A stretch of 64,000 nt of DNA, from the NCBI GenBank assembly GCA_947463725.1, contig CANHRM010000001.1, forward strand, positions 48,906-112,905. The letters run 5' to 3'. This DNA comes from Actinomycetota bacterium (GTDB lineage: Bacteria > Actinomycetota > Actinomycetes > Nanopelagicales > Nanopelagicaceae). The notes below the pieces were generated by a model that was given only the letters and a program-made list of their open reading frames with translations, was not told the DNA's origin and did not search any database. Every line of letters starts with the position of its first letter. Positions within the stretch are counted from its first letter, which is position 1. The position numbers and the translations under genes are program-made. Shown here piece after piece: positions 18,591-54,965 of this stretch.

Positions 18591-19403
18591 TTAAATAAAT
18601 CTACCTAGATCTTTAGTCGGATCCAGAACGGCACTTAGTAATTTTTTCGTATACTCATGTTTCGGAGTAGTAAAAATAGCTTCTACAGTGCCGGTTTCAA
18701 CAATTTTTCCGGACTCCATTACGGCAATATCGTCAGAGATAAAAGCCACAGTGCCTAGATCATGTCCAATAAATAAGTAAGTCAATTGAAACTTCTGCTG
18801 CAAGTCCTTCAATAAGTTTAAGATTTGAGCTTGGATTGAAAGATCTAACGAGGAAATCGGCTCATCTAAAATTATGAATTCGGGCTGTAAAGCTAGTGCT
18901 CGAGCGATGCTGACACGTTGTGCCTGACCACCAGATAATTGATGTGGATATCTAGTGGCATAGCTTGGTTCTAGCCCGACCATTACTAATAGCTCTTCTA
19001 CTCTAGCTATTCTCTCTTTTTTGGTTCCAACTTTATGGACAACCAATGGTTCTGAAATCGACTTCAAGACCGTCATTTTAGGATTTAGCGACGAGAACGG
19101 ATCTTGAAAGACAGTTTGAATTCGACGTCTAAATTTCTTTAATGATGCCCCTGAAAGAGATGCGATATCTGTGCCGTCAAATTTTATTGAACCAGCAGTA
19201 GGCGCCAATAGTTTTGCCAAAATAGATGCCACCGTAGATTTTCCAGATCCGGATTCACCTACTACTCCTAGAGTTTTGCCACGATAAATTGAGAAATTCA
19301 CATGATCTGCAGCACGCAAGTTTGTGCGCGAGCCACGTGGACCAATTTTATAGTCCTTAATTAGATCTATAGCTTCGACTAAAGGAGCACCGACGTTACT
19401 CAT
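18591..19403 (-). CDS. Oligopeptide/dipeptide ABC transporter ATPase (DppF/OppF type)
   Basis: GESGSGKST Walker A, LSGGQAQRVSIARAL signature, ILDEPISSLD Walker B. Confidence 0.94.
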   Translation of the reverse strand: MSNVGAPLVEAIDLIKDYKIGPRGSRTNLRAADHVNFSIYRGKTLGVVGESGSGKSTVASILAKLLAPTAGSIKFDGTDIASLSGASLKKFRRRIQTVFQDPFSSLNPKMTVLKSISEPLVVHKVGTKKERIARVEELLVMVGLEPSYATRYPHQLSGGQAQRVSIARALALQPEFIILDEPISSLDLSIQAQILNLLKDLQQKFQLTYLFIGHDLGTVAFISDDIAVMESGKIVETGTVEAIFTTPKHEYTKKLLSAVLDPTKDLGRFI

Positions 19404-20401
19404 TAATTTGCCTCCTCAGGATTATGACAGGCAAACGAATGCAGTGATCCGTTCTTATTCAATTCTATTTCTGGAACTACATCGCTACATTTTGCAATTG
19501 CTCTGGTGCAACGAGGATGGAATGCGCATCCCCCAGGAATTGTTGCTAGCGATGGCGGCGTTCCTGTAATCGTAACTAGTCGCTTAGAAGCGCCAGCACC
19601 AATTTTAGGCATCGAAGCAAGAAGAGCCTGAGTGTAAGGATGACGAGGAGATTGCAATACTTCTTTAGTATCGCCAATTTCGACTATACGGCCGCCATAC
19701 ATAATCGCAATCCGGTCTGCGATTGAGGCTGCAACGCCAATATTGTGCGTAATAAGAACTACTGCCATTTTTCGCTCATTGCGAAGTTTCTTAATGAGTT
19801 CAAGCACTGCAACTTGCACAGATGCATCAAGAGCTGTTGTTGGCTCATCTGCAATTAGCAAGGTAGGGCTAAGAGCGATTGCCATTGCAATTACTACGCG
19901 CTGACGTTGGCCGCCAGAGAGTTGGTGTGAAAATTGATTTGCTCTACGTTCAGGATCTGGAATCTGAACTGAATCCAGTAGTTTGACTGCTTCGGCCCAG
20001 GCTTCTGACTTTGACATACCTCTATGAACCGTAAATATTTCTGCAATCTGTGCTCCAACTTTGAAGCAAGGATCTAGAGAGGCAAGTGGATCTTGAAAAA
20101 TTACGCCGATTTTCTCAGCTCTTAATTGACGTAGAGTCTCTTCGCTTCCGCCAAGAATCTCTTCACCTTCAAATTTAATGGATCCAGTTATTTCGGCTGT
20201 GCCTGGTAGCAAACCAGTTGCTGCGTGAACCGAAACAGATTTACCAGCACCAGATTCGCCAAGTATTACAAGTGTTTCTCCTTGGGATACTGACCAATTG
20301 GCTGAACGAATTGCATGGAGTTTTCCTTGAGTGGTATTAAAAAATACATCTAAATTGCTAACTTCAACAATTGGTTTTCCGTTGCTTTGAGACATACCCA
20401 C
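19403..20401 (-). CDS. Oligopeptide/dipeptide ABC transporter ATPase (DppD/OppD type)
   Basis: GESGAGKSV, LSGGQRQRVVIAMAI, IADEPTTALD, C-terminal CAFHPRCTRAIAKC. Confidence 0.94.
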   Translation of the reverse strand: MGMSQSNGKPIVEVSNLDVFFNTTQGKLHAIRSANWSVSQGETLVILGESGAGKSVSVHAATGLLPGTAEITGSIKFEGEEILGGSEETLRQLRAEKIGVIFQDPLASLDPCFKVGAQIAEIFTVHRGMSKSEAWAEAVKLLDSVQIPDPERRANQFSHQLSGGQRQRVVIAMAIALSPTLLIADEPTTALDASVQVAVLELIKKLRNERKMAVVLITHNIGVAASIADRIAIMYGGRIVEIGDTKEVLQSPRHPYTQALLASMPKIGAGASKRLVTITGTPPSLATIPGGCAFHPRCTRAIAKCSDVVPEIELNKNGSLHSFACHNPEEAN

Positions 20402-21307
20402 CTAAATTTTCTTTGTCTGTGGATCGATTCGGTCGCTTAACCAATCACCGAAAACGTTCACGCAAAAAACGGTCAACATGATTGCAAACGCTGGGAATAA
20501 TGCAATCCACCATGCATTTTCAAGGTAATTTCTGCCTTCACTTAGCATCGATCCCCACGTTGGAGTCGACAGAGGAACACCTAACCCTAAGTAGCTCATG
20601 GAACTCTCGGCAATAATGGTCTGAGCAACAATGAAAGTCCACACCACCATCATTGATCCAACTACATTTGGAACTATATGTTGAAAAACTAAACCAAAAC
20701 CTGAGCGACCCGAAGATATTGCGGCTTTGTAAAACTCACTCTCTTTAACAATCAGCGCTTTGGCGTGAGCTAGGCGCGCAAATGGTGTCCAAAGCCAAAT
20801 TACTAAAGTTGTAATAATTGTAGTTAAGCCAGAACCAACAATAGAAACAATTGCGATCGCAACAATTAAAAATGGAAACGCTGTTTGAATGTCAACAACT
20901 CGCAGAATAATTGCCTCTTGCCAACCTCTGAAGTAGGCCGCAATCAGCCCTAAAGCACCACCGATAATCATTGCAAGTGTGGCTGTAATGAGTCCAACTG
21001 CAAACGAAATCTTGCCACCGTGAATTAGGCGACTAAATACATCACGGCCTAGTTGATCGGTGCCAAAATAATAATTTAAATCACCAACTTTTGAAAATGG
21101 AGGCTTAAGTCGAGAAATCAAATCTTGATAACCGGGATCTTGAGCGACCCACAAATTTGCGGTAAAGCTCAAAATTGATGCTATCGCCAAAAGAAAAAGA
21201 CAGATTGGGCCAGCTTGTAAGAAATAGCTTTTTTTGCCGTTAGGAGCGATTTTTGACGCAATCTTAGAACCTAAAAATAGGTTGCCTATTGCCATTTTAG
21301 GTTGCAT
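20402..21307 (-). CDS. ABC transporter permease (DppC type)
   Basis: YYFGTDQLGRDVFSRLIHGGKISFAVG; ESSMSYLGLGVPLSTPTWGSMLSEGR. Confidence 0.94.
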   Translation of the reverse strand: MQPKMAIGNLFLGSKIASKIAPNGKKSYFLQAGPICLFLLAIASILSFTANLWVAQDPGYQDLISRLKPPFSKVGDLNYYFGTDQLGRDVFSRLIHGGKISFAVGLITATLAMIIGGALGLIAAYFRGWQEAIILRVVDIQTAFPFLIVAIAIVSIVGSGLTTIITTLVIWLWTPFARLAHAKALIVKESEFYKAAISSGRSGFGLVFQHIVPNVVGSMMVVWTFIVAQTIIAESSMSYLGLGVPLSTPTWGSMLSEGRNYLENAWWIALFPAFAIMLTVFCVNVFGDWLSDRIDPQTKKI

Positions 21308-21308
21308 T

Positions 21309-22232
21309 TTAATTTACCTTAGCCCTAATTCTTGGATCAATGTAAAGGTAAAGTAAATCGACTATTAGATTCAATAAAACTACCATTACAGCAATTGCAA
21401 AAACGCCTGCTTCAAGTAGCGGGTAATCTCTGGCTTTCACGGCATTAATCATTAGCGAACCGATACCTGGCCACGCAAATACCGCTTCAACAATTACTGC
21501 GCCACCCACAAATTTTCCTAAGTCAATTCCAATTAACGAAAGCATCGGTACTGAGATGTTTCTTAGAATATGTTTGAACCAAATTCGGGCATTTGTAAAA
21601 CCTAATGATTTGCCAGTCCGAACGTAACCTCGATTTAATTCTTCGAGAAAATATGCACGGATTAGTCTGGTGTATCTGGCCATCAAAACAGCTGACAGTG
21701 CAACCGAAGGCATAATGATGCTTAAGCCCGCTTCGTTGCCAAAACTGGGTAACCATCTGAGCCAAACAGAGAAAACTAATATTAGGAAAATTCCGATAAC
21801 AAAGGGTGGAATAGATTGCCCAAGCATGGAAATCGACATAACTGCCTTGCCTGAAAATGAATTGCGTTTAACGGCCGCATAGATTCCAGCTGGTACCGCA
21901 ATGACAATGGCAAGTAAAAATGCTACAAAGCTCAAGTAAAGAGTATTTGGTAGTGCAGCCAAAATTAGCGGCATCGCAGGGAGCAAATAGGTATAGGACT
22001 CACCAAAATTTAGGGTGCACAAATTTTGTAAGAAAGATAAGTACTGCTCAAGGATCGATCTATCTAACCCCAGTGATTGCCTGATAGATGCAATGTTTTC
22101 AGCTGTTGCATCAGAGCCAGCTATCGCTAATGCAGGATCGCCACTCACTCTCACCAAAAAGAAAAGAAGAGTACCGATCCCGATTACTACAAGTATTAGT
22201 TGTAGTAATCGGGATCCTAGTATTCGGATCAT
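21309..22232 (-). CDS. ABC transporter permease (DppB type)
   Basis: LGLDRSILEQYLSFLQ...FGESYTY; VIVEAVFAWPGIGSLMINAVKARDYPLL. Confidence 0.94.
   Translation of the reverse strand: MIRILGSRLLQLILVVIGIGTLLFFLVRVSGDPALAIAGSDATAENIASIRQSLGLDRSILEQYLSFLQNLCTLNFGESYTYLLPAMPLILAALPNTLYLSFVAFLLAIVIAVPAGIYAAVKRNSFSGKAVMSISMLGQSIPPFVIGIFLILVFSVWLRWLPSFGNEAGLSIIMPSVALSAVLMARYTRLIRAYFLEELNRGYVRTGKSLGFTNARIWFKHILRNISVPMLSLIGIDLGKFVGGAVIVEAVFAWPGIGSLMINAVKARDYPLLEAGVFAIAVMVVLLNLIVDLLYLYIDPRIRAKVN
22176..22216 (-). promoter_or_regulatory. Perfect 17-bp inverted repeat with 7-nt loop inside the 5' end of dppB
   Basis: GATCCCGATTACTACAA-GTATTAG-TTGTAGTAATCGGGATC read directly; arms are exact reverse complements. 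Confidence 0.9.
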
Positions 22233-22239
22233 GCTTTAC

Positions 22240-23949
22240 TTACTTATTTCCGATGCTCACCAGGTCAATATTTCCACCTGCGTCGACTGTTAGACGCTCA
22301 AGCGCCTTATTGCCAGCCCAGATGTCAGGAGTATGAATACCCCAGAGAATTGGTGCATCTTCTTTAAGAATAGCTGCAGCCTTGCACAGACGAGAAGTTC
22401 TTGCTGTGCTCTTAACGTCTAGAGCTGCTGCTGCATTTATAGCAACGTCGTAGTTTCGGTTTGAGTAACCGATGTTGCTAGTTGGGTAACCTGTTGTGTA
22501 TCGCTCCATCTGGACAAGTGCATCTAGATCTGGAGAAGAAGACATACGCCACGCAAATAGATCTTTTCGTGGAATAGCTCCGCGTAAGTAATACACATCA
22601 AGATACTTTGAGAACTCGAGAACTTCTACCTTAACTGAGTTCACTGCATCTAATTTTTCAAGCATTTGTGAAATCGCCTGAGCCATAAGAACATCGTTTG
22701 TGATGTAAGCAGTTGAACTTTGGAAAGTTAAGTTCAAAGACTTCTTAGGAATTCCAGCTGCCTTCATCAAATCGTTTGCTTTAGCCAAGTCATATGGGAA
22801 AGCAGTTACAGAGTTACAGAAGCCGGTTAGTCCCTTTGGAATCAATTGCGCTTCAGCCACTTGACCAAGACCGCCATTAATTCCATCAATTAGAGCCTGC
22901 TTATCAACAGCATAGTTAAATGCCTGACGAACTCGCTTATCGGAAAGAGCTCCGGATTTAGCCATCAAGCTCATGATGTAAGTCGCAGGTTCAACGATTG
23001 ACTTGATGTCAAAGTTAGCTGATTTCAAGATAGAAATTGAATCTGTAGGCACCTTAGTAACTACATCAACGCCACCTGAACGCAGGGCTGCCATTCTTGA
23101 GGAATCCTCAGGAATAACTTTGAAAATAATCTTGGTAGCCGAAGGCTTAACGCGAAGCGAATAAGGGTTTGCTTCAAGTGTTAATTGAACGCCAGGTGTG
23201 AAGCTGGTTGCCTTGAATGGGCCGGTTCCAATTGGAGTCTTCCAGAATGTTACTGCGCCCTGTTCCGCAAATAGCTTAGGAGGCAAAATTGGAATAGTTG
23301 AAAGAGTTCTTGGAAGCAAATATCGAGGTGCTGAAGTTGTGATTTTTACTTGGTACTCAGATGCAACTTCAATTTTAGTTATATCTAAAACTTTTGCACG
23401 TAAGCCAGCGTTGTTCTTTGGGTTCATCACATAGTCAAGCGATGCTTTAACTGCATCTGCATTCATAGGTTCACCATTTGGGAACTCTTTACCCTTGATG
23501 ATGTTGAACACCCAAACATCTGGGCGACCCTTTTCTTGGGCCCATGAGTCGGCAGCATTTGGCATCAAGATTGGAGTACCAGTTGATAAATCAACTCGAG
23601 TTAATCCTGAGTAAATTGCTGCGACTACATATGAACGTGGTGGAGCACTTGCTGCATACGCTTCAAGCGTTGCTGGAAGAGCACCAATTCCGATGGTGAT
23701 TGTGCCGCCTGCACCACCGGTGAAATATTTAGTCCAAACTTTGGTTCCGTTGGAGTTAGTCGCGCACACTAGGGCATTTCCATTTACATAATCTTGCACA
23801 AGGAGTGTCGTACACTTTCCGCCAACAGTTGCTACAGTCGTTGCAGCTGAAGAAGGTGCAGCGTTAAACGCACCTACAACTGAAACTGCTAAACAAGAAG
23901 ATAGAAAAACTCCAAGAAACTTATTTTTCATTTTCATATGTCGAGTCAT
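22240..23949 (-). CDS. ABC transporter substrate-binding protein, family 5
   Basis: Signal peptide; DKRVRQAFNYAVDKQALIDGINGGLGQVAEAQLIPKG; operonic with dppBCDF-type genes. Confidence 0.92.
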   Translation of the reverse strand: MTRHMKMKNKFLGVFLSSCLAVSVVGAFNAAPSSAATTVATVGGKCTTLLVQDYVNGNALVCATNSNGTKVWTKYFTGGAGGTITIGIGALPATLEAYAASAPPRSYVVAAIYSGLTRVDLSTGTPILMPNAADSWAQEKGRPDVWVFNIIKGKEFPNGEPMNADAVKASLDYVMNPKNNAGLRAKVLDITKIEVASEYQVKITTSAPRYLLPRTLSTIPILPPKLFAEQGAVTFWKTPIGTGPFKATSFTPGVQLTLEANPYSLRVKPSATKIIFKVIPEDSSRMAALRSGGVDVVTKVPTDSISILKSANFDIKSIVEPATYIMSLMAKSGALSDKRVRQAFNYAVDKQALIDGINGGLGQVAEAQLIPKGLTGFCNSVTAFPYDLAKANDLMKAAGIPKKSLNLTFQSSTAYITNDVLMAQAISQMLEKLDAVNSVKVEVLEFSKYLDVYYLRGAIPRKDLFAWRMSSSPDLDALVQMERYTTGYPTSNIGYSNRNYDVAINAAAALDVKSTARTSRLCKAAAILKEDAPILWGIHTPDIWAGNKALERLTVDAGGNIDLVSIGNK

Positions 23950-45613: not shown

Positions 45614-46429
45614 TTGGAGGCAAAAATGGTAAGTCCAATTGAGAAAATTTTGCTCTGGTCTGAGGAATTCACCCCCACCGCAGATGGGCAGCCTAATTCT
45701 GAATTTTGGACTCCCGACCTTGGCGATGGCTCTCAACACGGACTGGTCGGCTGGGGAAATCACGAACGAGAGTTTTACACCACTGACTCTTTAGTCGCCA
45801 ATAACGGATTAACGATTACCGCAGCTCGTGAAAAAGGTCTATCTACTATTGAAACTTATTATGGACCAGCTGAGTGGACAAGTGGAAAAATTCACACGAA
45901 TAATAAGGTTTATTTCAAATATGGATACTTAGAAATCTCGGCAAAAATGCCTAAGGGCATAGGCACTTGGCCTGCTCTTTGGCTGTTAGGCAAAACTATT
46001 TCCGAGGGCATTGCTTGGCCAGCTTGTGGCGAGATTGATCTCTTTGAAGGAAATGGCGCAAAGCCAAGAACCATTCAAGGAACGCTTCATGCGGCAGGGT
46101 ATTCCGGTGAATTTGGAATTACTGGTTTCCATGAGAGCGTCGAGGATTTATCGCAAAGCTTTAATCGATTCGCAATTAACTGGCAAGAGGATTCAATTGA
46201 ATGGCTCTTTAATGATCAGTCATTCCAGAAATTCACTCGCAACCAGGGAGATTTTGCTGATAAGGCTTGGCCATTTAATGACTATTTCTACCTAATTATT
46301 AATCAGGCAATAGGTGGTTGGTTCGTGGGCGAGGTAGATCCATTATTACAGAGTAGTAAATTGGAAATTGAACATATTAAGCATTTCATGATTGATGGTG
46401 TTGGTGAAGTACTAATGGCTAATGCTTAA
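45614..46429 (+). CDS. Glycoside hydrolase family 16 (beta-1,3-glucanase-like), no evident signal peptide; likely start ATG at 45626
   Basis: WPACGEIDLFEGNG catalytic ExDxxE; WPALWLLG; N-terminus starts directly at the fold. Confidence 0.88.
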   Translation: MEAKMVSPIEKILLWSEEFTPTADGQPNSEFWTPDLGDGSQHGLVGWGNHEREFYTTDSLVANNGLTITAAREKGLSTIETYYGPAEWTSGKIHTNNKVYFKYGYLEISAKMPKGIGTWPALWLLGKTISEGIAWPACGEIDLFEGNGAKPRTIQGTLHAAGYSGEFGITGFHESVEDLSQSFNRFAINWQEDSIEWLFNDQSFQKFTRNQGDFADKAWPFNDYFYLIINQAIGGWFVGEVDPLLQSSKLEIEHIKHFMIDGVGEVLMANA

Positions 46430-47804
46430 TAACTTCGCCAACACCGTTAATTGAATAAACTTTTATGTAATCAAAGGCCATGGATGCCTGCTTTAGATTA
46501 GGCGTAACCTCGCCGCCTAGAATTCCGCCCATAGCCAAATTAATAATGATGTAGAACTCATGGTCATAAACCCAGTCATTATCAGTCTTATCCACCGTTA
46601 CAAATGGCACACCATCTAAGTAATAACGTATTTGATCTGGCAGCCAATCGACTGCATAAGTATGAAATTCTGAATTGTGCGCACTAGTCATTTCGACTTT
46701 ATCGCCACGTCCCCCGCCACCTGATAAAGGTCCATGGGTGTAGCCAAGATTTGTATTTGGTAGTCGGCCTAATAGTTCGGTGATATCGATTTCACCACAG
46801 CCTGGCCATGGTCGATCATCGATATTTGCACCTAACATCCAGAATGCACCCCAGGTGCCATTTCCGACTGGTCCTTTAATTCTTGCCTCGATGCGACCGT
46901 ATTTGAAACCAACTTTATCCTTTGTAACCAATTTTGTACTTAACCATTCGCATGGTGTGCCGTAATAGCATTTGTTTACACCAGCACCAGTAGTTGTTGC
47001 ATTAATTACGAAGGAACCTTTTCCATCTGTACTCGAAATTTTGTCGTCATACCATTGCCGTTCGCTATTACCCCAGCCACGATTTCCGAATGCTACGCCA
47101 TCGCCATTTTGAGCTACCCAAACTGAAGGGTCGGCCGGTGCACCTGTAGCGCCATTGAATTCCTCTGACCAAATCTGTTCGTACTTGCGACTTAGGTTTG
47201 CCACCGCAACAGTATTTGAAGTCTGCTTTGCTGATACGAAGCCTTTTGCAGCAAAACTAATTTGTAGCGATATATCGCTACCTAAATCTGAAGTTTTTAA
47301 ATTGTAAACACTCTTTGTTGCACCTTTGATCTCAAAATATCCGGCAAACCATTGATACGTTGGTTTAGCCGTTGTTGGAATGCTTTGCGGGAGTACTGCA
47401 ATTTCGATAACTTTGTCGTCACTAGGGCGTATTCGAATAGTTAATGATTCAGATAAAAGAACGTTTCCAATGATGATTATGTTTGATTTCGCTACTGCCG
47501 AAGTTCCGTCGTCAAATGTATGTGTCTCAATGAATTGCAATTTCTTTTTATTATCGCTGCTTTTCAACTTTGCAGTTAGACCTGAAGCTGACAAAGCTTT
47601 CCCGCTAAGCAGCCATTGAAAGGAGCTTGGGCCGTTATCAGACCACTCGGCTGGCGTTGCTTTGAAGGAATATCCAGTTGATCCAGCAGTAATTCTTGGC
47701 AAAGTAAGCGGCTTCTTCAAATCTTCACCGTGAGCGGCAATCATAGAAAATGATGAAATGCTCAAGGTGAGTGTGGTCAAAACTGCTAGGACTTTGCGAA
47801 ACAT
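46419..47804 (-). CDS. Secreted GH16 glucanase with N-terminal Ig-like region
   Basis: Signal peptide; WPGCGEIDITELLG; about 200 aa beta-rich N-terminal region. Confidence 0.9.
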   Translation of the reverse strand: MFRKVLAVLTTLTLSISSFSMIAAHGEDLKKPLTLPRITAGSTGYSFKATPAEWSDNGPSSFQWLLSGKALSASGLTAKLKSSDNKKKLQFIETHTFDDGTSAVAKSNIIIIGNVLLSESLTIRIRPSDDKVIEIAVLPQSIPTTAKPTYQWFAGYFEIKGATKSVYNLKTSDLGSDISLQISFAAKGFVSAKQTSNTVAVANLSRKYEQIWSEEFNGATGAPADPSVWVAQNGDGVAFGNRGWGNSERQWYDDKISSTDGKGSFVINATTTGAGVNKCYYGTPCEWLSTKLVTKDKVGFKYGRIEARIKGPVGNGTWGAFWMLGANIDDRPWPGCGEIDITELLGRLPNTNLGYTHGPLSGGGGRGDKVEMTSAHNSEFHTYAVDWLPDQIRYYLDGVPFVTVDKTDNDWVYDHEFYIIINLAMGGILGGEVTPNLKQASMAFDYIKVYSINGVGEVIKH

Positions 47805-47826
47805 ATGCCTGAATTCCTTAATGTTG

Positions 47827-47861
47827 AAAAAGCCGGCGAGGCCTTTGGAAGCCTCGCCGGC
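47827..47861 (-). terminator. Rho-independent terminator
   Basis: Perfect 11-bp stem GCCGGCGAGGC/GCCTCGCCGGC, 8-nt loop, T-run on the minus strand. Confidence 0.9.
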
Positions 47862-47869
47862 GATTATTT

Positions 47870-49324
47870 CTACTTAACTGTAACTGTTGAGGTGTATGTC
47901 TTGCCCGCAACTACAACCGAAACAGTTTTCTTTCCTGCTGTCACGGTGTACTTGAAAGCTTGATTTGCAACCGAGATTTTCTCAGTTACTTTCTTCAGGC
48001 CAGTGATGCTGATTACAGCAGACTTGCCAGAGGCATTTGCGATTGCAACTGTCATTGAAAATACAGTCTTGCCCTTCACTGTTGCCTTAGAAGCAGTTGC
48101 TTTTACTGAAACCGCTGTTGAGGCTGGCGCTGCAGCAACAGCTGCATCACCAATGAAGTGGAATTCCACCATATCTGCGATATCAGTTGCTGCACCTGTG
48201 ACCTCAGGAAAAATCTGACTAAACAAACCGTTTGTCGTTGGTGTTGGTGTAGTCAGAGTTGCTGGAGCCGGTTCACCCTTTTTGTCAGTGTTCTTCAAAG
48301 CGAAAAGAACATAGCCAAAACCATCAGTGGTGCCAGTTAATACTGCCTGATCGTTTCCTTGCGAACTATCCTTTGCTGGATCAGTGGCAGTAGTTCCATC
48401 TGTAATACCTGCTTTTGAAGCACTGTACGCCTTGTTGACATGAAGCTTTACGGTTGCGTTTGCAAGCGCTTTACCATTGTCATCTGTCACCTTATATACA
48501 AGATTAAGAGCAGATCCTGTTTGAACATAAGCTTGGCGGAACCCGATTCCCTTTGCATACCAATTGTTATCAACGCTAAATACCTTTTCAAGGTCTGTGC
48601 GGTGAATTGAATTAACATCATCTAGAACTGGTGAAACCAAGCGAATTGTTGGCTTTGTCGCAGGCTGCACAACTGGTGTCTTTGGATCGTAGTAATGGAA
48701 CTCAGTAATTACTGAATGATCAGGCTTCTCGCCCGCAATTTCAGGTAATACCTGAGAGTGAAGATCATTTAGTCCATCGGCACTGATATTTGGCTTCGCA
48801 GTCATTGATTCTGGCTCTGGTTCGCCGGTGCCTGGCTTATCTAGGTTCTTCATTACGAAAGATACGTTGCCGTAAGCATCGGTCTTATGTGTCACCTGTT
48901 GTTGATCAGCTGATTCTGGCTTATGAATTCCAGTTGTAATCTTGTCATCAACTTGCAAAATTGAAGAAGAATTTGAATAACCCTTATTGATGCGAAGTTT
49001 CACATCTTGACCAACTAGAACTTTTCCATCTTTATCTGTTACGTGATAAGTCAATGTAATAGTCGAGCCAGTAGGTACGAATGCACGTTGGTAGACCAAA
49101 CCGGTTCCGAACCAACCATTAGCTACCCAACCGTCAGCCATTTTCTGGTTCGCAGCTGCTTCACTGGTGTTGTCAGCAGTTAATACTGGGCTGATTAATT
49201 TAATGACAGCGTCTTGTGGTGGATTGCCTGCGGCCATCGCGGGAGCTGACACAGCGCTTGATATAGCAAGCACAGTCACAGCGGCAGCAAAACCGGCTAG
49301 TACTTTCTTTGCTTTAGTACTCAT
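47870..49324 (-). CDS. Secreted protein with two copies of an unassigned domain plus C-terminal Ig-like domain
   Basis: Signal peptide; repeats IKLISPVLTADN... and IRLVSPVLDDVN... each ending EFHY/EFHF. Confidence 0.75.
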   Translation of the reverse strand: MSTKAKKVLAGFAAAVTVLAISSAVSAPAMAAGNPPQDAVIKLISPVLTADNTSEAAANQKMADGWVANGWFGTGLVYQRAFVPTGSTITLTYHVTDKDGKVLVGQDVKLRINKGYSNSSSILQVDDKITTGIHKPESADQQQVTHKTDAYGNVSFVMKNLDKPGTGEPEPESMTAKPNISADGLNDLHSQVLPEIAGEKPDHSVITEFHYYDPKTPVVQPATKPTIRLVSPVLDDVNSIHRTDLEKVFSVDNNWYAKGIGFRQAYVQTGSALNLVYKVTDDNGKALANATVKLHVNKAYSASKAGITDGTTATDPAKDSSQGNDQAVLTGTTDGFGYVLFALKNTDKKGEPAPATLTTPTPTTNGLFSQIFPEVTGAATDIADMVEFHFIGDAAVAAAPASTAVSVKATASKATVKGKTVFSMTVAIANASGKSAVISITGLKKVTEKISVANQAFKYTVTAGKKTVSVVVAGKTYTSTVTVK

Positions 49325-49383: not shown

Positions 49384-50229
49384 TTAACCCTTTACTGCTC
49401 CATCCATTACACCGCTTACAAGTTTGCGGCCCACAAAGATAAAGAGAATAAGTAATGGCGCAGTTGCTAAGAAGGCCCCGCCCATTTGTAAGGCATAGTC
49501 CAGTCCGTACATTGGCTTGAGCTGTGTAAGGGCTACTTGCAACGTGAAGTGATGTGGATTTTGCAAAACGATGGTTGGCCATAGGTAGTCGTTCCAAGCG
49601 GCTAAAAAGGCAAATAACCCAAGTACAAATGAGCTTTGTCGGATGATTGGAAGAACTACACCGAAGAAGATACGTGGAACACTTGCGCCATCGATACTTG
49701 CTGCTTCAAGAAGTTCATTAGGAACTTGAGCATCAATAATTTGGCGCATCCAGAAAACACCAAAGGCTGTTACCAGGGCCGGCACAATAAGTGCATACAA
49801 CGTATCGATCATGTGTAAGTTCTTGACCAACATAAAGAGCGGAATGATGCCCAACTGACTAGGTAGCATCATTGTTCCGACTATGAATAGGATAAAGAAT
49901 TTTCGGCCCTTGAAATTGAGCTTTGCAAATGCAAACCCAGCAAAAGCCGAAAATACAACTTGAGCCACCGCAATTGATATTCCCACAATAAACGTATTAA
50001 TCAATGCGCTATTGAAGTAAACACCTTCGGCACTTAGTACTTTCTGCGCGACGATTAGGAATCTGCCACCTGGAATTAGCGAAGGCGGACTCTTTGAAAT
50101 TTCAGCATTCGTATTAGAAGAAACTACAAACATCCAGTAAAAAGGGAATATCGAGAGGAAAGTAATGACCGCTAGCGCAAAATAACTAGCAGGTGAAGTG
50201 CGCTGCCATCTAGGGATCTTGGCCATCAT
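49384..50229 (-). CDS. Carbohydrate ABC transporter permease (MalG type)
   Basis: LLEAASIDGASVPRIFFGVVLPIIRQSSFVLGLFAFLAAWNDYLWP. Confidence 0.94.
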   Translation of the reverse strand: MMAKIPRWQRTSPASYFALAVITFLSIFPFYWMFVVSSNTNAEISKSPPSLIPGGRFLIVAQKVLSAEGVYFNSALINTFIVGISIAVAQVVFSAFAGFAFAKLNFKGRKFFILFIVGTMMLPSQLGIIPLFMLVKNLHMIDTLYALIVPALVTAFGVFWMRQIIDAQVPNELLEAASIDGASVPRIFFGVVLPIIRQSSFVLGLFAFLAAWNDYLWPTIVLQNPHHFTLQVALTQLKPMYGLDYALQMGGAFLATAPLLILFIFVGRKLVSGVMDGAVKG

Positions 50230-51215
50230 CGCCTACTTCCATCATTGGAAATTCGGCGGGTAATTAGGAAATTAATTGTCGAAATGATCAGCACGATTAC
50301 CGTAATCGCAATACCAATCGCTGCGGCATACCCGTACTTGTTGTTTACGAATGCTTGGTTATATAAAAATAGCGTCAAGGTTAAGAACTGTTTACTTGAC
50401 CCACCAGATGGATCCAATTGTTGTGGCTCAGCAAATACTTGCAAACCACCAATTGTTCCCACTACCAATACGAAAGTAATCGTGTTTTTAAGCTGCGGAA
50501 GTGTCACATAAATGAATTGCTGCCATTTAGTCGCGCCATCAACTGAAGCTGATTCGTATAGCTCATCTGGAATGGCAAGCATGGAAGCCAAGAAGATTAA
50601 GGTGTTGTAGCCAATCCAGCGCCATGTAATCATCGACGCAATTTGGATATGGCTCGGTACTACACCTTCGATGAAGTCAATGTGGTCAGCGCCAAAGAGA
50701 CCGAGAATTCCGTTAATGATTCCGAAGTCTCGACCAAATAATTGCTGGAAAACAATAGTGATCGCAATTACTGAAGTGATGTTTGGAACTAAGAAAATCG
50801 TGCGCCAAAAAGATGCCGCGCGCAGCCGCTTACTTCGCAGAATGGCAGCTAAGCCGATAGCCATTGCCATCTGTGGGAATGTAGAAAGTGCCCAGATGCT
50901 GAAAGTATTACGAATAGCTAGCCAGAAATCTGAGTCACTCCAAAGTGTTACGAAATTCTGAACCCCGTTGAAAGTTGAACCACCAAGTGGATCCCATTTG
51001 TAGAAAGAAATGTAGATTGAATATAGAACTGGGGCCAAGCCGAAAATTAGGAAAATTACAAAGAACGGTGCAATAAACGGAATACCGAAACGATGATCTA
51101 AAGACGCAACACCTTCAATAGGTTTTGCAGCTTTCGCCGACTTCTTTGGATTTGCTGATTTCCAAGGAGAGAGAGGCGCCTTGCGGCGCCCCTCTTTTAC
51201 CTTTAGTTGGCTCAT
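50226..51215 (-). CDS. Carbohydrate ABC transporter permease (MalF type)
   Basis: LYESASVDGATKWQQFIYVTLPQLKNTITFVLV EAA loop. Confidence 0.94.
   Translation of the reverse strand: MSQLKVKEGRRKAPLSPWKSANPKKSAKAAKPIEGVASLDHRFGIPFIAPFFVIFLIFGLAPVLYSIYISFYKWDPLGGSTFNGVQNFVTLWSDSDFWLAIRNTFSIWALSTFPQMAMAIGLAAILRSKRLRAASFWRTIFLVPNITSVIAITIVFQQLFGRDFGIINGILGLFGADHIDFIEGVVPSHIQIASMITWRWIGYNTLIFLASMLAIPDELYESASVDGATKWQQFIYVTLPQLKNTITFVLVVGTIGGLQVFAEPQQLDPSGGSSKQFLTLTLFLYNQAFVNNKYGYAAAIGIAITVIVLIISTINFLITRRISNDGSRR
51171..51194 (-). promoter_or_regulatory. Strong hairpin with GCAA tetraloop in the first codons of the MalF-type permease
   Basis: mRNA GAGGGGCGCC-GCAA-GGCGCCUCUC; pairing includes one G-U. 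Confidence 0.8.
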
Positions 51216-51243: not shown

Positions 51244-52587
51244 CTAATTATTGATAACTTTTTTGATGTCCACAATTACTTGAGCCCAAGATTTAGCCGC
51301 AGTCATTTTCTTTGCAGCTACACGTCCTAGACCGGCACCAATTGCTTGATCAATTGCGCGCTGTAGTTTGCCTTCAAAGATTGGCTTAACTTTTGAAACG
51401 CCCTCAGAGTAAATCTTTCCAACTGGAGCGTTGTTAAAGAATGGATCTTTGTAGTCAAGCAAAGCTGCATCTTTGTACAAAACAGAAGCCGCTGGGAAAA
51501 GACCATAAATCTTAAATACCTTTAGCTGTTGTTCTGGGGCCAGATACCAGGTGATGAAGTCGTAAGCTTCTTGTGAATGCTGCGCGTATGAAGGAACAGT
51601 TAGTTGAGTTCCGCCTTGGTTTCCACCGCCGCCAGGAAGGTCAGCAATATCCCACTTACCGGTAGTATCTGGAGCTTGTTGCTTGATGTAATCCATCATC
51701 CAGGCTGGCGCCAAAATAGTTGCGAAGGTTCCCTTGTTCATGCCGATATTCCAGTCAGATGTGTACTGACCAATACGAGTTCCGATACCAGCTTCGGTTG
51801 CCTTAATCGTTGTATCCCAAGCTAACTTCACTTGTGGATTTGTGTCATAAACCAATTTTCCAGAATCAGTACCATCATTCTTGTAATACTTTTCTGTACC
51901 TTGATTCATGATTGCGGCATAAAGTGTTCCGGCGTTATCAATAAATCCTTTGCCAGCTTTTTTATCGGCAGCACTTAGCTTCGAATTATATTTAACACCA
52001 GTTGAAATGAACTTCTCCCAAGTCGGCCACAATTTTCCAACGGCGCCACGTTCGGTAGGAAGTCCAGCTTTCTTAAACAAATCAACTCGGTAGGCAACTT
52101 CAAGTCCGCCAACATCAGTTGGGAATCCAATTACGCTGTCGTCATAACCAACGCCTTGTTCCCATCGCCATGGCAAATAATTCTTCTTAAAGTCCAGCGC
52201 TGTTTTGCCAGCTGGAACGCCTGCTACGACGTTGGCTTCAGAAGTTTTCATCTTGCGTAAATCAGTGAAGCACTTTGGATAAGAGCGCCAGTATCCGGAG
52301 TACTGAACTTCTACAGCCACGATATCTGGGCCGGTTTTTGAAGTACATGCGGTAACCATGTTTGTACCATTTAGCGGATCTAAATCTGACTTCTTAATTT
52401 GCAAAGTAATTTCTGGGTGCAAGTTCTTGTATTCCTGCACTAGCTGGCGCTGGATAACGTCGCCGAAGGTCCAGATCGTGATTGTTACTGGATCTGCTGC
52501 GCGAGCTGGGGTACCCAGTACGCCAGCTGCCAAAATAGCTGCGGTCGAAACAGCAATTGAGCCTTTAAATAAGGTCTTCTTACGCAT
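51244..52587 (-). CDS. Carbohydrate ABC transporter substrate-binding protein
   Basis: MRKKTLFKGSIAVSTAAILAAGVLGTPARA signal peptide; SBP family 1 content; start trimmed to ATG at 52587. Confidence 0.92.
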   Translation of the reverse strand: MRKKTLFKGSIAVSTAAILAAGVLGTPARAADPVTITIWTFGDVIQRQLVQEYKNLHPEITLQIKKSDLDPLNGTNMVTACTSKTGPDIVAVEVQYSGYWRSYPKCFTDLRKMKTSEANVVAGVPAGKTALDFKKNYLPWRWEQGVGYDDSVIGFPTDVGGLEVAYRVDLFKKAGLPTERGAVGKLWPTWEKFISTGVKYNSKLSAADKKAGKGFIDNAGTLYAAIMNQGTEKYYKNDGTDSGKLVYDTNPQVKLAWDTTIKATEAGIGTRIGQYTSDWNIGMNKGTFATILAPAWMMDYIKQQAPDTTGKWDIADLPGGGGNQGGTQLTVPSYAQHSQEAYDFITWYLAPEQQLKVFKIYGLFPAASVLYKDAALLDYKDPFFNNAPVGKIYSEGVSKVKPIFEGKLQRAIDQAIGAGLGRVAAKKMTAAKSWAQVIVDIKKVINN

Positions 52588-52676
52588 AACTAACTCCTTG
52601 AGATTTAACAGCGCCAATAAAGTTATCGTTTCGTAGTACCAATTTGCCTGACCTCGAGGTAGGCTCTTGCGCACTA

Positions 52677-53773: not shown

Positions 53774-54733
53774 ATGAATAACCGCACACTTAAGACAGGG
53801 CGAGCTTTGGTTTCACTTGCCCTAGTTATTGCTGCCTCAGTAGCGGCGATACCTGCAAGTTCTGCTGCTGGGCTACCTTCGGCTCGCTTAGTAGCCCCAT
53901 TATTCGATTCGAAAAATAGCGTTGATGCTACTGGCGATATTGCACAGTATTACTCAGCTGGTACAAAGGCTTTTTACGCGTACATCGGACATGGAACAAA
54001 AATTTCACTTACCTACTTAGTGACTACTGATGGCACTAAGCCAGCAGCAAATCAAGAATTGCGACTACAGGTTAATGCCCCATACAGTGGTTCAAAAGCA
54101 AACTGGTTAACTGAAGATGGAAAACCAGTTACAGCACAAGTAGATGCTAATTTCGGTCTCGAATTAGTTGGAAAAACAGATGCAATGGGCAAAGTTACCT
54201 TCGTCTTAACTAATACAGATACAACTGGATTAGAAGAAGTGCCTACATCGCCAACCCAAGATCGCGGCGCAATTAAACCTGCTCGCCTTTATGGAACCAT
54301 GAAGCCAGTTATTCCTGGTAAGGGCGACAAGGAAGCAGATACTGATCTAATAACACTAGATATTACAAAATCTGCAGCTAGCGTTTTGCCAGCCGTTGCA
54401 ACACCTACACCAAGTGCAACAGCAACTCCGACACCTAGTGCTACAGCGACACCAAGTGCAACAGCAACTCCTGAAGTTACTTCTGTTGCTCCAGTAGCTC
54501 AGACAATTTCAGCTGTTGCGACATCACTTAAGGTAGGCAAGTCGTTAACACTTCCCGCTAAGAGTGCAAGAGGATTAGCAATCAAGTGGGTATCAACAAC
54601 CAAGACAGTTTGTACTGTATCTGGAAATAAGTTAACTGCTAAGAAAGCTGGCTCATGCTCAGTGACTGGCACAAATGCTGGAGATGCAATGAACGCAGCT
54701 CTATCAGTAACAAAGAAAATCGCAGTCAAGTAA
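53774..54733 (+). CDS. Secreted protein: one copy of the 47870-type domain, Ser/Thr/Pro linker, C-terminal Ig-like domain
   Basis: ARLVAPLFDSKNSVDATGD...RLQVNAPYSGSKANW similar to 47870 repeats; TPTPSATATP linker. Confidence 0.75.
   Translation: MNNRTLKTGRALVSLALVIAASVAAIPASSAAGLPSARLVAPLFDSKNSVDATGDIAQYYSAGTKAFYAYIGHGTKISLTYLVTTDGTKPAANQELRLQVNAPYSGSKANWLTEDGKPVTAQVDANFGLELVGKTDAMGKVTFVLTNTDTTGLEEVPTSPTQDRGAIKPARLYGTMKPVIPGKGDKEADTDLITLDITKSAASVLPAVATPTPSATATPTPSATATPSATATPEVTSVAPVAQTISAVATSLKVGKSLTLPAKSARGLAIKWVSTTKTVCTVSGNKLTAKKAGSCSVTGTNAGDAMNAALSVTKKIAVK
54401..54472 (+). repeat. Imperfect short tandem repeat encoding TPTPSATATPTPSATATPSATATP
   Basis: Repeated acaccaagtgcaacagcaact-type units. 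Confidence 0.85.
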
Positions 54734-54742
54734 TTAAATAAA

Positions 54743-54790
54743 AACTGCCCGCCTTGACTCAATTAAGAGTTAAGGCGGGCAGTTCTTTTT
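54743..54790. terminator. Bidirectional rho-independent terminator between 53774 gene and tRNA-Glu
   Basis: Long hairpin AACTGCCCGCCTT...AAGGCGGGCAGTT followed by CTTTTT on plus; TTTTTATTT on minus. Confidence 0.9.
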
Positions 54791-54791
54791 G

Positions 54792-54863
54792 TAGCCCCGA
54801 AGGGATTCGAACCCTCGTAGCTGGCTTGAGAAGCCAGAGTCCTAGGCCGCTAGACGACGGGGC
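54792..54863 (-). tRNA. tRNA-Glu (anticodon CTC)
   Basis: Reverse complement GCCCCGTCGTCTAGCGGCCTAGGACTCTGGCTTCTCAAGCCAGCTACGAGGGTTCGAATCCCTTCGGGGCTA; 72 nt cloverleaf. Confidence 0.96.
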
Positions 54864-54965
54864 CCTAGTGCTAACTTTTTCAAAGTTGATCGCCTTCGGC
54901 TTTCAACTTCTAATCTTCAAAAACGATCACCTGGGGTTTTCGTCTTCTTCGTGCTTAGTCTTGCG

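Follow-up and report, generated by a model that had tools for sequence, protein, structure and literature searches.

Why should the reading frame of a transporter permease carry, within its first codons, a long and perfect inverted repeat? The question is raised by the dppB gene of the window, by which we mean the whole 64,000-nucleotide stretch of DNA analysed here. The gene lies in a transporter operon with the following parts.

22240..23949, minus strand: SBP_bac_5 substrate-binding protein (SBP) gene (Pfam PF00496, E=2e-63), stop codon at 22240-22242
22233..22239, minus strand: 7-nt spacer from the SBP stop to the permease start, from the gene coordinates
21309..22232, minus strand: dppB/oppB-type permease ORF (Pfam PF00528 and PF19300) with the hairpin in codons 6-19
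22200..22216, minus strand: 5' arm of the 17-bp stem in transcript sense (exact inverted repeat, fold)
22193..22199, minus strand: 7-nt loop, CUAAUAC in transcript sense (fold; identical in the ortholog)
22176..22192, minus strand: 3' arm of the 17-bp stem in transcript sense (exact inverted repeat, fold)
20402..21307, minus strand: dppC-type permease, starting 1 nt after dppB
19403..20401, minus strand: ABC ATPase (oppD-like)
18591..19403, minus strand: ABC ATPase (oppF-like)

The repeat is exact: GATCCCGATTACTACAA at 22176-22192 and its reverse complement at 22200-22216 enclose the 7-nt loop GTATTAG, giving a stem-loop (22176-22216) of 17 perfect base pairs that spans +17 to +57 of dppB on the coding strand. 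The SBP and dppB genes, both on the minus strand, are separated by 7 nt, and the stem starts 23 nt past the SBP stop codon. The first-pass annotation had the arms, the loop, the codons and the spacer right but placed the hairpin about 33 nt after the stop. It had also judged a perfect stem in an ORF unlikely to arise by drift, and the numbers agree: if the protein is kept constant and codons are sampled at window usage, a perfect 17-bp stem is expected at this site with a probability of 9.6e-9, and when codons 1-40 of dppB were synonymously re-coded 40,000 times the longest stem had 13 bp. Two matches to a hairpin arm occurred in none of the shuffles of the window. Folding of the 141-nt SBP-dppB junction, which had been proposed as a check, gives -44 kcal/mol (z = -4.0). 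Like the protective SBP-permease hairpins known elsewhere, this is a stable hairpin at the boundary between an SBP gene and a permease gene.

The element is not a familiar repeat. The only near-perfect repeats of this size in the window are the dppB hairpin and a terminator-like one, and the dppB motif is present as a single copy in the genome; this copy number, together with the lack of a plasmid or phage match, led us to discard a REP or mobile repeat. Two additional matches to a half-site elsewhere in the genome, which have no second arm, and core-motif matches in seven other genomes of the same genus, which have no comparable hairpin, are put down to chance. The Rfam 15 covariance models, at gathering score, gave no match for the hairpin and found two tRNAs only in the window. 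Elsewhere in the window, a strong hairpin (46392-46450) covers the region where two convergent genes (45614-46429, plus strand; 46419-47804, minus strand) overlap at their 3' ends, a strong G+C-rich hairpin (47818-47877) directly follows a BIg21-domain protein gene (47870-49324, minus strand) with no permease identified downstream, and a bidirectional terminator-like repeat (54737-54792) lies between a gene at 53774-54733 (plus strand) and tRNA-Glu (54791-54864, minus strand).

The evaluation of selection on the stem was made with one close dppB ortholog, L005 in genome G355 (labelled Candidatus Nanopelagicales), which is 79% identical. Searches gave no further ortholog in 296 genomes from the order of the window, in 195 G355 relatives or in the r220 genome contigs, and because there is one close ortholog in these collections, conservation of the window stem rests on two sequences. 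L005 lies in the same catabolic cluster, with 12 kb collinear at 70.6% nucleotide identity. The cluster itself (11727-34463 in the window) is large, holds amidohydrolases, isochorismatases, AMP-dependent ligases and the opp operon, and is collinear with contig C88 of G355; G355 is absent from the 296 genomes of the order, and horizontal spread of the cluster is possible.

The ortholog stem, GATCCCGAGCACTACAA-CTAATAC-TTGTAGTGCTCGGGATC, again has 17 perfect pairs and a loop identical to that of the window. The two stems differ at four positions, all of which fall within two complementary pairs; by our own arithmetic, four random changes in 34 positions would all pair up with a probability of about 3e-4. 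The first-pass annotation had looked to orthologs for compensatory synonymous changes. Compensation is indeed found, in two pairs that leave the stem perfect, but the changes are not synonymous: both arms alter the protein, Leu9 being replaced by Ala (5' arm) and Ile17 by Leu (3' arm). Third codon positions tell the same story, as 13 of 14 agree between the window and the G355 cluster in the hairpin codons against about 43% elsewhere (near saturation), and among 6,971 fourteen-codon windows drawn from 21 gene pairs the one covering the hairpin ranks first in third-position identity. Both the structure and the wobble positions within the ORF are therefore conserved. The compensatory pairs and the frozen third positions show a stem structure that is evidently held by selection, and the comparison thus points to a base-paired element maintained partly at the expense of the protein.

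An ortholog with a conserved protein and no stem had been named as the observation that would count against the idea. Such a combination was seen in paralogs only: operons sharing the N-terminal motif GSRLLQLI... have no in-ORF stem and carry a strong hairpin in the SBP-dppB spacer instead. We therefore gathered about 120 junctions upstream of PF19300 permeases within the order, counting a hairpin as strong at -25 kcal/mol or stronger, assigning start codons by rule, and taking the background from the window, two contigs and the survey loci. A single strong hairpin right after the upstream (SBP) stop is present at 116 of 121 opp-type junctions (median -32 kcal/mol), in genomes that are related by ancestry and so not independent; at the same threshold the controls gave 2/121 within the permease gene and 8/120 within the upstream gene. 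A search restricted to Watson-Crick stems reached a score of at least 9 in 112 of 118 junctions and in none of the shuffles. The hairpin starts at a median of 18 nt past the upstream stop. Spacers are usually 65-190 nt, compared with 7 nt in the window operon, and most hairpins lie wholly within them, typically 7-95 nt before the permease start; the distance to the SBP stop is somewhat tighter than that to the permease start (SD 28 vs 34 nt). Where the tails of the upstream genes were classified (n=72), 50 were SBP_bac_5, two were permeases and the remainder, as fragments, had no Pfam match. L036 and L167, which have almost no spacer, show weak, interrupted structures, and their upstream genes are presumably the two permeases. 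Permease-permease junctions have no equivalent strong hairpin, and the dppB-dppC junction of the window has no strong hairpin either. A distant homolog from a large actinobacterial genome (L028) has an 11-bp hairpin about 90 nt into its ORF. The survey thus shows a set of predicted hairpins positioned, across the order, immediately behind SBP genes and ahead of permease genes.

The stem sequences vary freely from operon to operon, and what is kept is pairing. An alignment of 19 spacer hairpins from one ortholog set has 18 consensus pairs, 11 of them changed on both sides. Interior mismatches are 25 G-U against 2 A-C in the opp-type set, and 33 against 2 over three sets; this asymmetry argues that the pairing takes place in the transcript and not as a dyad in DNA, and the comparative evidence shows the class behaving as transcript-strand RNA.

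Other transporter families give a similar picture, including a second case within an ORF in the window.

51244..52674, minus strand: SBP_bac_1 sugar-type substrate-binding protein (Pfam)
50226..51215, minus strand: MalF-type permease ORF, 28 nt past the SBP stop
51164..51203, minus strand: second in-ORF hairpin, core GGGGCGCC-GCAA-GGCGCCUC, in codons 5-17 of the permease (covarying orthologs)

The close orthologs of this system have spacers of 12-32 nt and keep the hairpin, mostly as a clear stem. When 15 were aligned by sequence only, paired cells made up 88%, compared with 41-60% in slid versions; covariation scored 0.246, and 0.104 after shuffling (0/500). In two distant homologs, L190 and L192, whose spacers are 78 and 142 nt long, it is the spacer that holds the hairpin. 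A separate sample of 29 SBP_bac_1 junctions showed a strong hairpin in 25, beginning 0-25 nt past the SBP stop, and none in four; the permease probably starts downstream of the hairpin, in its loop (e.g. L205, L211, L214) or where the 5' arm begins (L202, L216). The pattern in the survey is that short spacers go with a predicted hairpin inside the permease ORF. Peripla_BP_6 genes followed by a permease (n=5) have hairpins of -29 to -40 kcal/mol, whereas none of the 22 assigned cases followed by a secreted protein reaches -25; the secreted protein that was checked, at L230, is exported and hydrolase-like. These last junctions are a natural negative control. L229, at a contig end with the next gene unassigned, has a hairpin of -25.5. 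Many Peripla_BP_6 SBP genes have no strong hairpin and overlap stop to start with the gene of a signal-peptide protein (L230, L232-L239, L241-L247, L249-L254).

We suggest that the inverted repeat probably acts as an RNA stem-loop in the SBP-dppBCDF mRNA and shields the 3' end of the SBP message. Endonucleolytic cleavage would fall in the less needed dppBCDF part of the polycistronic mRNA; 3'-to-5' exonucleases (a PNPase gene is encoded in the genome) would digest back to the hairpin and stop there; and the SBP message would then end in the hairpin and accumulate while the permease message decays, leaving SBP in excess over permease. The most likely outcome of the dppB hairpin would be more binding protein than membrane channel. 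Since the SBP-dppB spacer is only 7 nt, the hairpin is placed at the beginning of the dppB reading frame, where the amino-acid sequence makes room for it. Ribosomes translating dppB would melt the stem, and protection would therefore need low dppB translation or prior cleavage. Control of the SBP/permease ratio from within the permease ORF, as proposed in the first-pass annotation, is strongly supported by the comparative evidence: ortholog compensation, order-wide post-SBP hairpins, and their lack at permease-permease junctions and where a secreted protein follows the SBP. Whether the whole can be read together, so that almost all SBP-permease operons in the tested families of this order of streamlined Actinobacteria would have a dedicated post-SBP hairpin which, where the spacer is lost, is rebuilt in the permease ORF or around its start codon, with RNA selection overriding the protein and in-loop starts perhaps adding a translational layer, we regard as evenly balanced. 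We take the acI Actinobacteria to be related to the window organism. In freshwater acI Actinobacteria, SBP genes of several transporters are expressed at 1.7 to 411 times the median (PMC5574706). This range fits the protection model but is no test of it.

The stem could instead slow translation of dppB, or couple it to that of the SBP, and so limit the permease. It starts at +17, just past the footprint of an initiating ribosome, no clear Shine-Dalgarno is seen in the 7-nt spacer, and some relatives have the start codon in the hairpin loop. However, in most operons the hairpin is wholly in the spacer, upstream of the permease start, and its placement relative to that start (upstream, around it in the loop, or inside the ORF) varies too much for a common gating geometry. 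We consider a translational role in place of protection rather improbable, and gating of a particular start codon unlikely as the common function; a gate on dppB translation, the further suggestion of the first-pass annotation, may be additional to mRNA protection. Processing by RNase III or another double-strand-specific enzyme, cutting the polycistron between SBP and permease, would suit stems that are long and nearly perfect (many are 15-26 bp), but many are short for the enzyme, the 17 bp in dppB among them, and we think this quite improbable. A partial terminator or pause site lowering permease transcription might be suspected from the pyrimidine-rich run about 7 nt past the stem in both the window dppB and its ortholog. 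That run, however, encodes LLFFLV, no terminator-like site was called at the hairpin, and T content past the opp-type hairpins equals background (at least five T in eight at 9/121 vs 7.5%); the hairpins are therefore not intrinsic terminators, and partial termination is very improbable. An intrinsic terminator proper, with a G+C-rich stem and a direct U run, was rejected on T content and terminator calling.

Explanations that do without an RNA function fare worse still. Template-switch (quasi-palindrome) correction would keep the arms identical for purely mutational reasons and would account for paired amino-acid-changing substitutions in both arms, but it leaves unexplained the 13 of 14 conserved third positions, the preference of the class for G-U over A-C mismatches and the recurrence at nearly every opp-type junction; we hold it to be extremely unlikely. 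The perfect dyad symmetry could also suit a DNA-level element (an operator dyad, a cruciform or a recombination site). Such an element is hardly credible for a motif that is single copy and has no match in plasmid or phage records or in viral contigs, in a class whose stem sequences differ freely between operons and whose G-U bias follows the transcript strand.

Protection of the SBP message by a hairpin has good precedents, with which the preferred reading can be compared. The malE-malF REP hairpins of E. coli are likewise stable, stand directly after an SBP gene and before a permease gene, lack a U tract, and have been shown to spare SBP mRNA (PMC5927463); they are dispersed intergenic repeats, whereas the dppB hairpin occurs once, is perfect and lies within the permease ORF. 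Closer are the structures of Dar and Sorek 2018 (PMC5927463), which share with it a location in the downstream coding sequence, the absence of a U tract and wobble conservation. Of 26 protective hairpins in E. coli operons that decay differentially, 17 fall within the coding sequence of the downstream gene, where wobble positions are more strongly conserved, and in ABC operons the stabilised subunit is the SBP (PMC5927463). Those structures lie 107 +/- 56 nt into the ORF and are backed by term-seq and half-lives (PMC5927463), whereas the dppB hairpin is a sequence prediction at +17 to +57; it differs further in its perfect 17-bp stem, its amino-acid-changing compensation and its phylum. The hairpins of the paralogous opp operons (L011, L061-L170) share its junction and are similar to it in distance from the SBP stop and in stability, but are in the spacer rather than the ORF. 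The kind of hairpin is thus already known from E. coli. The open-access literature yielded no report of such hairpins in this order, and what is new is how widely they occur in an actinobacterial order that is known largely through genome assemblies, the pairing of short spacers with an in-ORF hairpin, and a two-species example of stem pairing kept by amino-acid-changing double substitutions, which is a clean case of RNA structure forcing paired changes in a protein. A post-SBP hairpin looks like the default operon layout here, and malE-type protection of SBP mRNA, with hairpins hidden in coding sequence, would thereby extend to this order; as the stem positions can be read from the sequence, control of SBP:permease stoichiometry should be predictable and testable in metatranscriptomes.
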